From assembly GCA_027484605.1 (NCBI GenBank), contig JAIXSR010000142.1:1-42408 (forward strand): DNA of 42,408 bases, read 5' to 3'. Of this stretch, positions 7,447 to 10,095 are shown one piece after another. How positions within the stretch are numbered: the stretch's first letter is position 1; each line of letters opens with the position of its first letter. Position numbers and translations under genes: made by a program. This stretch comes from Hyphomicrobiales bacterium (lineage in GTDB: Bacteria; Pseudomonadota; Alphaproteobacteria; Rhizobiales; Beijerinckiaceae). Below the pieces are notes generated by a model. It was not told where the DNA came from, did not search any database, and saw only the letters and a list, made by a program, of their open reading frames with translations.

Positions 7447-7450
<4 letters not shown>

Positions 7451-8076
7451 TGCTGATCGGACAATTCGATTCGCCCTTCACCCGGCGCGTCGCGATCACG
7501 ATGCGGCTCTACGGGATGCCCTTCGATCACCGGCCCTGGTCGGTCTTCGGCGATGCCGACCGGATCAGCGCCCACAATCCGCTGCTGCGCGTGCCGACCC
7601 TGGTGCTGGATGACGGCATCGCGCTGGTCGACAGTCAGGCGATTCTCGATCATCTCGACGGTCTGGTCGAACCCGGCCGGCGGCTGATGCCGTCAGAGGG
7701 GCATGCCCGGGCCGAAGCGATGCGCATCTGTGCCGTGGCCTGCGGGATCGGCGACAAGGCCGTTGCCCTGTTCTACGAGCTGCGCCTGCACGAGGCGCCC
7801 TCGGCCTTTTACGTCGAGCGCTGCCATCGCCAGATCCGCGACGGGCTTGTCTGGCTGGAACAGGCCTATGCCGAGCGACCCGGTCCGTTCTGGGCCGGCG
7901 AGGCCTTGAGCCAGCCGGACATCACGGTGGCGGTCATTCTCCGGCATCTGGGCGAGGCACATCCCGATCCGGCCCGCCTTGACGGGTATCCGCGGCTGGC
8001 TGCCTTGGCCGCCATGCTCGAAGCGACCGAAATCTTTAGGGAAATTTCCCAGCCCTTCGTTGCACCGTCGGCCTGA
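7447..8076 (+). CDS. Glutathione S-transferase family protein
   Basis: A 209-residue GST-fold protein. The N-terminal thioredoxin-like domain (about 1-78) contains [20 protein letters not shown], the cis-proline segment [10 protein letters not shown], and the glutathione-binding DSQAILDHL. An all-helical C-terminal domain (90-205) includes the [14 protein letters not shown] core. It starts at ATGATG with a four-base overlap of the uvrA stop, so it is probably co-transcribed and translationally coupled with uvrA. The substrate is unknown; a detoxification role alongside DNA repair is plausible but only inference. Confidence 0.88.
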
Positions 8077-8285
8077 GGCGCGATCGGTTCTCGCGCAATC
8101 ATTAAAGTTTTATCAAACAGGCATGCGAAATGCGCATATCTGGTGACCGTTCAGGCGCCAGCTCTGCCTAGACTTTGCCTTTATTGCACTGCACATAAGC
8201 ATCCATGCCCAAGACGACGGCAGCGTCCCCCACGGTGATGCAGCGGCAGTCGGCGGGCCACGACATTGAATTCTGGAGAAGACCC
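8077..8285 (+). promoter_or_regulatory. Intergenic region before the DUF1127 gene
   Basis: A 209-base gap. GCGCGA (8078-8083) and TCGCGC (8091-8096) form a weak stem-loop after the GST stop. The middle is relatively AT-rich (8100-8145 and 8170-8200) and probably holds the promoter of the DUF1127 gene. I cannot choose between sigma-70-like and heat-shock-sigma-like elements by eye. Confidence 0.3.
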
Positions 8286-8441
8286 ATGATCCTGACCCAC
8301 ATTATCGCCCGCATCCAGTCCTGGCTGCGTTTCCGCCGGAATGTCGAGATCCTCTCGCAGCTTTCCGATCGCGAGCTTGCCGATATCGGCCTGAACCGCG
8401 GCAGCATCGAACAGGCTGCCCGTCAGGCCGTCGGCGCCTGA
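8286..8441 (+). CDS. DUF1127 small protein (YjiS-like)
   Basis: A 51-residue basic protein with the DUF1127 signature: an N-terminal amphipathic segment ([18 protein letters not shown]) and the [19 protein letters not shown] motif. In alphaproteobacteria these small Arg-rich proteins are associated with stress and RNA turnover; the Rhodobacter member CcaF1 binds RNA and is encoded upstream of CcsR sRNAs. ATG 8286 follows GGAGAAG at 8274-8280. An upstream in-frame ATG at 8205 lacks such a site and would add a non-conserved tail. The 3' region carries hairpins with C/U-rich loops (see the ncRNA entry), supporting the same arrangement here. Confidence 0.85.
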
Positions 8442-8489
8442 GGCAATTGGCAGGTCCGGATGGTTGTTCCGTCCGCGCCAGCATCCCAT

Positions 8490-8616
8490 CCCGCTTCACG
8501 CGGGTCAGGCGGCAGAACTCTCCCCCCTGGCGCCTGACCTCGCGTGTTCCTCCTACGCGTATCGGCTAACTCCCGGCCCTTACGTGCGAATGGCCCGCTT
8601 CGGCGGGCCTTTTTTT
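8490..8616 (+). ncRNA. Candidate cuckoo/CcsR-like small RNA in the DUF1127 3' region
   Basis: Three stem-loops lie ahead of a terminator. Hairpin A is CCCGC/GCGGG (8490-8504). Hairpin B is GGTCAGGCG (8503-8511) paired with CGCCTGACC (8531-8539), with a 19-base loop containing CTCTCCCCCCT. Hairpin C is CGCGT (8541-8545) paired with ACGCG (8555-8559), with loop GTTCCTCCT, an exact complement of AGGAGG. A and B share two bases, so they partly exclude each other. Cuckoo-family RNAs have hairpin loops with CUCCUCCC-like anti-Shine-Dalgarno motifs and follow DUF1127 genes; position and architecture match, but the loop sequences are not exact. The 5' end is unknown, and the RNA may be processed from the DUF1127 mRNA. 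Confidence 0.55.
8592..8616 (+). terminator. Rho-independent terminator after the DUF1127/sRNA unit
   Basis: GGCCCGC (8592-8598), tetraloop TTCG, GCGGGCC (8603-8609), then seven T residues. This is a strong canonical terminator, located 46 bases before the trmFO start. Confidence 0.92.
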
Positions 8617-8661
8617 ATGCGCCCCCTCGCCTCCGGCTGCGCAAGCGATTATCTAGCCGGG

Positions 8662-10095
8662 ATGACCCGAACCCTTTCTCCGATCCATGTCGTCGGCGGT
8701 GGCCTCGCCGGCAGCGAAGCCACCTGGCAGATCGCCCAGGCCGGCGTCCCTGTCGTGCTCCATGAAATGCGGCCGCGCCGCATGACCGAAGCCCACAAGA
8801 CGCAGGGGCTGGCTGAACTCGTCTGTTCGAATTCCTTCCGCTCGGATGATTCCGACCTCAATGCCGTCGGGCTGATCCATCACGAGATGCGACAGCTCGG
8901 CTCGCTGGTCATGCATGCGGCCGACCGGCATCAGGTGCCGGCCGGCTCCGCTTTGGCGGTGGACCGTGATGCCTTCTCAGACGACATCACGGCCCGGCTC
9001 GAAGCCCATCCGCTGGTCACGATTGACCGGAACGAGGTGGCTGGTCTGCCGCCGGCGGAATGGGACAGCGTGATCCTGGCGACGGGGCCGCTCACCTCCC
9101 CGGCGCTGGCGGAGGCGATCCGTTCGCTGACCGGCGAGGATTCGCTCGCCTTCTTCGATGCGATCGCGCCGATTGTCCATCGCGAATCGATCAATATGGA
9201 TATGGCCTGGTTCCAGTCCCGCTACGACAAGGCGGGGCCCGGCGGCACTGGGGCGGATTACATCAATTGTCCGCTCGACAAGGTGCAATACGAGGCCTTT
9301 GTTGCCGCCCTGATCGAGGGCGAGAAGACCGAATTCCGCGAATGGGAGAAGGACACGCCGTATTTCGACGGCTGCCTGCCCATCGAGGTGATGGCGGAGC
9401 GTGGCGTCGAGACGCTGCGGCACGGGCCGATGAAGCCTGTCGGCCTCACCAACCCGCATGATCCGACCGTGAAGCCCTATGCCGTTGTCCAGCTGCGGCA
9501 GGACAACAAGCTCGGCACGCTCTACAACATGGTCGGTTTTCAGACGAAGCTGAAATATGGCCCGCAATCCGCGATCTTCCGGATGATCCCAGGGCTGGAA
9601 CAGGCCGAATTTGCCCGGCTCGGCGGGATCCACCGCAATACCTATCTCAATTCGCCGCGGCATCTCGATTCCGTCTTGCGCCTGAAGGCCCAGCCCCGCC
9701 TGCGTTTCGCGGGCCAGATCACCGGATGCGAGGGCTATGTCGAGAGCGCGGCCATCGGCCTCGTTGCCGGGCTCCTGGCAAGCCGCGAGCGCGCGGGCCT
9801 GGGGCTGGATGTGCCGCCGCCCGAGACGGCGCTCGGCGCCCTGCTCAACCACATTACCGGCGGCCATATCGAGACGATCGATACCGGCCCGAAATCCTAC
9901 CAGCCCATGAACATCAATTTCGGCCTTTTCCCGCCGATCGAGGCCGCCCCGCGCGACGAGAACGGCAAGAGGCTGCGCGGCAAGGACAAGGCGGTTGCGA
10001 AGAAGCGCATGATTACCGCCCGCGCCAAGGCCGCGCTGGCGACCTGGATGGCGGCGCATGAGCTTGCTGCTGCCCTGCCGGAGGCCGCAGAATAA
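8662..10095 (+). CDS. trmFO: Methylenetetrahydrofolate--tRNA-(uracil-5-)-methyltransferase
   Basis: A 477-residue folate- and FAD-dependent enzyme that methylates U54 in the T-loop of tRNA. It opens with the FAD-binding dinucleotide motif [12 protein letters not shown] (residues 9-20). Family signatures follow: CSNSFRSDD near residue 55, and the C-terminal [13 protein letters not shown], where CEGYVES holds a functionally important cysteine. ATG 8662 gives the standard family length. The frame stays open to 8464, but that extension would run through the terminator and the candidate sRNA, so it is rejected. It converges with the squalene-synthase-like gene, seven bases apart. Confidence 0.95.

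Follow-up and report, generated by a model that had tools for sequence, protein, structure and literature searches.

The mRNA of a small DUF1127 gene in a Hyphomicrobiales genome (4.0 Mb, 171 contigs) probably ends in an intrinsic terminator preceded by three hairpins (A, B and D), a module that would give a trans-acting anti-Shine-Dalgarno (aSD) sRNA. The locus lies in a stretch of 42,408 nucleotides (hereafter, the window), for which a sequence-only reading had proposed a diverged cuckoo/CcsR-like RNA behind the DUF1127 gene. That proposal is well supported by conserved loops on variable stems, by purifying selection and by canonical hairpins at the same place in other loci. As the strict loop motif is absent and no Rfam model matches, we place the locus outside the family, as a variant predicted to work like a cuckoo RNA. 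The gene order is a GST-like gene (7447-8076), the DUF1127 gene and trmFO, and the features are as follows.

8124 to 8137, plus strand: TGCR-N6-GCAT, LysR box of the LsrB/VtlR type (T-N11-A), putative activator site (motif search)
8184 to 8193, plus strand: TTGCACTGCA, conserved promoter-region element (motif search)
8275 to 8280, plus strand: Shine-Dalgarno sequence GGAGAA of the DUF1127 gene (sequence)
8286 to 8441, plus strand: DUF1127 gene, 51 aa (PF06568, E 1.7e-13)
8450 to 8482, plus strand: hairpin A in our naming, which differs from that of the sequence-only reading (predicted fold, relatives)
8497 to 8546, plus strand: hairpin B, 18 bp, loop AACUCUCCCCC at 8516-8526 (fold; 47/50 positions invariant)
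8547 to 8554, plus strand: unpaired linker UUCCUCCU, not conserved (fold, alignment)
8556 to 8586, plus strand: hairpin D, loop AACUCCC at 8568-8574 (fold; slice 8556-8587 invariant at 32/32)
8592 to 8616, plus strand: intrinsic terminator (terminator prediction; 25/25 invariant)
8662 to 10095, plus strand: putative trmFO of the GIDA family (PF01134), named from family and length; synteny anchor outside the RNA

A profile search confirmed the DUF1127 call (50.5 bits; curated cut-off of PF06568, 23.3). The frame also has an upstream ATG (8205-8441, 78 aa), and an open frame of similar length occurs in four near species; the position of the Shine-Dalgarno sequence favours the start at 8286 over this upstream ATG.

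Downstream of the stop codon and as far as the T-run (8442-8616, 175 nt), the predicted fold consists of hairpins A, B and D followed by the terminator. Its energy of -84 kcal/mol was matched by none of 200 shuffles (mean -63.4, z -5.2), and hairpin B by itself reached a folding z of -7.3. The perfect 9-bp stem originally described for hairpin B (GGTCAGGCG/CGCCTGACC) is indeed there and extends to 18 pairs, and the strong terminator was likewise recovered, invariant at all 25 positions in five near species. Hairpin D and the hairpin at 8450-8482 had been absent from that description. On the other hand, its hairpin C (8541-8559) lies outside the minimum-energy fold, into which it can be forced only at a cost of 7.8 kcal/mol, and the CCTCCT motif assigned to it (8549-8554) falls mostly in the unpaired linker, differs in all four near relatives and is thus confined to the window species; hairpin C was therefore rejected. 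Nor was a two-base switch between competing hairpins A and B supported. Presumably, and this is a guess, the competition concerned CCCGC/GCGGG at 8490-8504, yet the CCCGC arm is found in the window row alone and all five near-species folds choose B. Three relatives have CCTGC, with which pairing is still possible through one G-U, and another (G013) has CCCTC, with one mismatch.

The loop of hairpin A reads UUGUU in the window species, UUCUCCC in three near relatives and UCUCCC in one, and hairpin A probably once presented a CUCCC-core loop. The window thus has two CUCCC loops plus a degenerate one. Of the earlier notion of a diverged, single-copy version, the divergence stands and the single copy does not, given three hairpins in four near relatives.

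Between hairpin B and the terminator, 113 of 120 positions are invariant in the five near species, whereas in trmFO only 74 of 237 four-fold sites are; in the same species, the hairpin A slice is invariant at 26/50 and the linker at 5/9 positions. Since B and D are near-invariant together with the terminator, the RNA itself, beyond the terminator alone, appears to be under strong purifying selection. Hairpins B and D do not vary in these species and so allow no test of stem covariation there, and hairpin A changes fast yet is paired in 87% of cells, with covariation not above shuffles. Loop conservation and stem covariation in relatives had been put forward as checks of the RNA; the former was found and the latter, with hairpin A at shuffle level, was not.

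Across the genus, trmFO has a full-length match in 16 of 17 genomes, the other (G005, 83% complete) having only a partial, paralogue-like one. Gaps behind the orthologue of the window gene (DUF1127-1) were taken from 15 of the 17 genomes, G005 and G011 being left out, and this orthologue lies 138-363 nt upstream of the trmFO match in 14 of the 15 loci and farther away in G007. CTCCC sits in predicted hairpin loops of 14/15 gaps (shuffle mean, 0.65 loci), and the 23 such loops compare with a mean of 0.66 and a maximum of 3 in 200 rounds of dinucleotide shuffling. The motif occurs 29 times on the plus strand and never on the minus strand of these gaps. As the gaps are related (five are from near species, four more share a stem), they form about eight groups by eye, seven of which have a CUCCC loop; in G009, CTCTCCC is present outside any loop of the predicted fold. 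The CUCCC core is thus kept in 14/15 loci with differing stems, the pattern of variable stems and conserved aSD loop core that marks cuckoo RNAs. With CUCUCCCU and CUUCUCCCU at one extreme and UUCUCCUCCCU (G014) at the other, the loops grade from the motif of the window toward the canonical one. Downstream of DUF1127 in G008 (L012), a terminator unit stands in several tandem repeats. A DNA search with the gap in 199 family genomes returned four genus genomes (its own included) and one 24-nt match; sequence similarity alone, as judged from this search, reaches no farther than these genus genomes.

Position reaches farther. Among the best 80 named trmFO loci of the matches listed, 65 have a same-strand DUF1127 gene upstream, 46 of them within 700 nt. 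CTCCC loops follow DUF1127 in 21 of these 46 listed loci (one of the 21, L059, being genus genome G014), and in 14 of these 21 (14 of the 46) canonical CCUCCUCCC (CCTCCTCCC) loops stand at the same place. The CCTCCTCCC loci among these best 80 are Mesorhizobium, Kaistia, Roseibium/Labrenzia and Brucella/Ochrobactrum records, and four Mesorhizobium loci have six loops within 300 nt. The other 25 of the 46 trmFO-linked genes in this listed set of other Hyphomicrobiales have no CTCCC loop, among them Methylobacterium L072, L074 and L101 and Bradyrhizobium L078, L083 and L127. Given the canonical CCUCCUCCC loops in the corresponding DUF1127-trmFO interval of these loci, the window locus is probably a positional orthologue of canonical cuckoo loci whose loops have drifted to UCUCCC. 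Loss and regain of loops may be an alternative history.

Cuckoo RNAs, also known as the CIN1 locus, consist of two to four adjacent hairpins, and their link to DUF1127 was reportedly noted by Reinkensmeier and Giegerich in 2015. The window shares this linkage, with DUF1127 directly upstream of the hairpins, and the positional orthology with CCUCCUCCC loci; its loop motif, in contrast, has drifted, and UUGUU, AACUCUCCCCC and AACUCCC stand where each loop would have CCUCCUCCC, the reported loop motif of cuckoo-type hairpins (PMC3927594, PMC10746234). Rfam models found nothing of the cuckoo kind in the window, at the gathering cut-off or at E up to 10, and the covariance-model comparison that had been suggested thus gave no match. 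Alpha-r14 (RF02344) had no match in the window and none above the gathering cut-off in any of the 17 genus genomes.

Among characterised systems, CcsR1-4 with ccaF1 (RSP_6037) of Rhodobacter sphaeroides are reported to have the same order as the window, with DUF1127 first, then several sRNA hairpins in a row and finally a Rho-independent terminator, all on one transcript in Rhodobacter (PMC10253847, PMC8625941), and the related RS0680a has aSD loops as in the window (PMC3927594). Unlike CcsR1-4, the window has UCUCCC/ACUCCC loops and a LysR-type box upstream. Alpha-r14/NfeR1 resembles the window in its three hairpins, variable stems and aSD loops (PMC10746234, PMC7143759), yet all NfeR1 loops are reported to have CCUCCUCCC, and the window is without an Rfam match. 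Among the papers listed on cuckoo/CIN1/CcsR, on DUF1127 and on anti-Shine-Dalgarno with amtB, none describes the variant in its title or abstract opening; the founding cuckoo and 2021 CcaF1 papers may do so.

Upstream of the gene, the TGCR-N6-GCAT box occurs in 12 of the 15 loci of the genus, where mononucleotide shuffles gave 0.12 on average and at most 3. The A of this pattern was relaxed to R only after inspection; unrelaxed TGCA-N6-GCAT is found in 5/15 loci, the window, with TGCG, not among them. TTGCACTGCA is exact in 12/15 loci and present as TTGC[AG]CTGCA in 13/15, and in all 11 loci having both, box and element are spaced by exactly 60 nt. Outside the genus, the pairing was not found: a looser pattern gave one of 81 DUF1127 copies in the listed named loci, and this copy, L059, is from the contig already counted as genus genome G014. 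Without the box, the element was seen in 11 of these 81 copies (shuffle mean 0.18, maximum 2). The box resembles the LsrB site TGCA-N6-GCAT reported for the NfeR1 promoter (PMC10746234, PMC7143759), and the LysR regulator VtlR is reported to activate three DUF1127 genes in Brucella (PMC12595884), so a LysR regulator is plausible as activator of the DUF1127 locus.

Similar loops accompany a second DUF1127 gene. DUF1127 matches number two in the window genome (G000) and 34 in 16 of the 17 genus genomes. Copies other than DUF1127-1 number 19. A CTCCC loop is present in 16 of them, either within the final 75 nt of coding sequence or in the 3'UTR, and the three without (L196-L198) are of another type by sequence. 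The loop lies within the coding sequence in 14/16 copies, in 12 of which it starts 36 nt before the coding end. Two features elsewhere in the window genome belong here.

L057 1336-1365 (G000:C156), minus strand: hairpin within the terminal part of the second DUF1127 gene, loop AUUCUCCCCUCC
L058 (G000:C37:139275-139364): alpha-r14-like hairpin with loop AUUCUCCUCCC in the amtB 3'UTR, before a terminator

Within the coding loop, CTC encodes 14/14 Leu, CCC 16/16 Pro and TCC 13/16 Ser; elsewhere in these genes the same codons take 37/112, 40/72 and 37/95. In an alignment of 13 of the 16 coding hairpins (three were left out, their 30 letters being identical to G012), 90% of stem cells are paired, 11 cells are changed on both sides and the covariation score is 0.386 (shuffle mean 0.156), three measures that relatedness can inflate, each reached by 0/500 shuffles and far lower in slid versions. 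Stricter measures were at shuffle level, with four double-change pairs (62/500) and five further pair types (426/500). Stem covariation of this hairpin is thus partly supported. The own folds of G004, G005, G007 and G008 differ, with the coding loop in another register in two and none there in two. A LysR-type regulator gene (L057 1883-2779) lies divergent to this second DUF1127 gene. The amtB hairpin of the window genome scores 33.7 bits, below the cut-off of 58.8; it is present in seven genus genomes, always with CUCCUCCC in or beside the loop and ahead of a terminator.

CUCCC loops precede 10 of 11 DUF1127-1 terminators in the genus sequence examined, as against 7 of 21 others. These seven belong to DUF1127-1 (two), DUF1127-2 (four) and amtB (one); the remaining 14 comprise one repeat terminator of a DUF1127-1 locus and 13 elsewhere, none of which has the loop, in a small set with several orthologous to each other. 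The motif TCTCCCN{22,50}TTTTTT gave 117 matches in the 17 genomes, compared with 35 for a reversed and 49 for a permuted control (summed rows, overlapping ones included). Merging left 101 matches, 30 of which end in a terminator-like helix by a filter applied to the true motif only; DUF1127-1 loci account for seven of these. From the 23 that remain, 20 were folded as a set and G000:C86 apart: the motif sits inside a hairpin loop in 2/20 and also in G000:C86, so a wide dispersed hairpin family is unsupported. G000:C86:40226-40276 (minus strand; L230) lies in the 3'UTR of a gene that, from inspection of its sequence by eye, is presumably aldehyde-dehydrogenase-like; this 3'UTR carries a terminator and a hairpin whose loop is UCUCCCC, with no DUF1127. 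UCUCCC is enriched ahead of T-runs throughout these genomes, mostly without being placed in a hairpin loop, a point against the sRNA reading; unrelated genes often have it unlooped in the stretch that leads from their stop codon to their terminator, possibly a general 3'UTR bias. At a separate locus in G008, G004, G005 and G007 (L140, L143, L146, L148), two hairpins have CCUCCC loops, the second being the terminator stem.

The two kinds of DUF1127 locus might reflect an aSD dialect linked to DUF1127, in which UCUCCC/CUCCCCUCC is used at two unlinked genes, once within a coding region whose codon choice, together with paired changes, preserves the stem; proteins and hairpins would then co-evolve, each with its own loops or targets. 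In the window genome, the DUF1127 loops have drifted and the amtB loop has not, as the latter keeps CUCCUCCC. However, the DUF1127-1 loop of G014 contains CUCCUCCC and the dehydrogenase-like 3'UTR has UCUCCCC, so drifted loops and DUF1127 do not coincide strictly; this lowered the weight of the dialect, which we regard as a possible but rather unlikely account.

Somewhat less probable still is that the hairpins merely shield the 3' terminus of the DUF1127 message and insulate trmFO, with loops that have no partner. Terminator and stable stems would suit this, as would the start of trmFO 45 nt past the T-run, and UCUCCC lies outside the hairpin loop in 18 of the 20 fetched non-DUF1127 terminator regions, so that the motif is common in 3'UTRs without hairpins. 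Yet protection does not explain why loops are kept while stems change, and it sits poorly with the loop-less terminators away from DUF1127 and amtB, small and partly redundant as that set of 13 is. The loops could also act in cis, pairing with the Shine-Dalgarno sequence of DUF1127 itself (GGAGAA) in negative feedback: the best loop is complementary to it over 5-6 nt in 12 of 14 loop-bearing loci, as with UUCUCC in hairpin A of G013, G002 and G015. We doubt this strongly, since only 4 nt match in G004 and G008, and GGAGA is a generic Shine-Dalgarno sequence, with complementarity counted on the own site alone. About as improbable, or slightly more so, is a DUF1127 protein that reads the loops itself, as binding sites or by titration, without base pairing. 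Both DUF1127 types of the genus have UCUCCC/CUCCCC-type loops, CUCCUCCC is retained in the 3' hairpin of amtB in seven genomes, and CcaF1 is reported to bind RNA (PMC10253847); against this stand the two exceptions just named, in G014 and at the dehydrogenase-like gene, and a reported dispute over whether DUF1127 binds RNA or proteins, with no RNA binding by YjiS (PMC12501420). An accident of composition, or constraint from coding for an N-terminal TrmFO extension, can practically be dismissed: the frame is open from 8464 (ORF 8464-10095) and likewise long in G012, G013 and G015, but it spans only 479 aa in G002, and the loop excess over dinucleotide shuffles speaks against accident.

For the trans-acting sRNA that we favour, transcription from a promoter near 8120-8200 would give a single RNA ending at 8616. 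Its 3' part would be cut off, possibly by RNase E, in analogy to CcsR1-4, which are reported to arise from the ccaF1 3'UTR via RNase E and with CcaF1 (PMC8625941, PMC10253847, PMC7866481); the DUF1127 protein may aid maturation, as CcaF1 does. Loops with the C/U-rich core CUCCC would complement Shine-Dalgarno sequences of the GGAGA/GGGAG type, and the freed 3' part could thus pair in trans with the ribosome-binding sites of target mRNAs and make these less translated or less stable, aSD motifs being reported to silence targets in the case of NfeR1 (PMC10746234).

A search for exact CCUCCUCCC loops would miss the locus of the window. Canonical and drifted forms are connected by their common position between DUF1127 and trmFO, and together they make up a natural series in which to test how much anti-Shine-Dalgarno loop is needed. 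Besides, the hairpin inside the second DUF1127 gene joins protein and RNA element, and may help make the question of RNA versus protein binding by DUF1127 testable.
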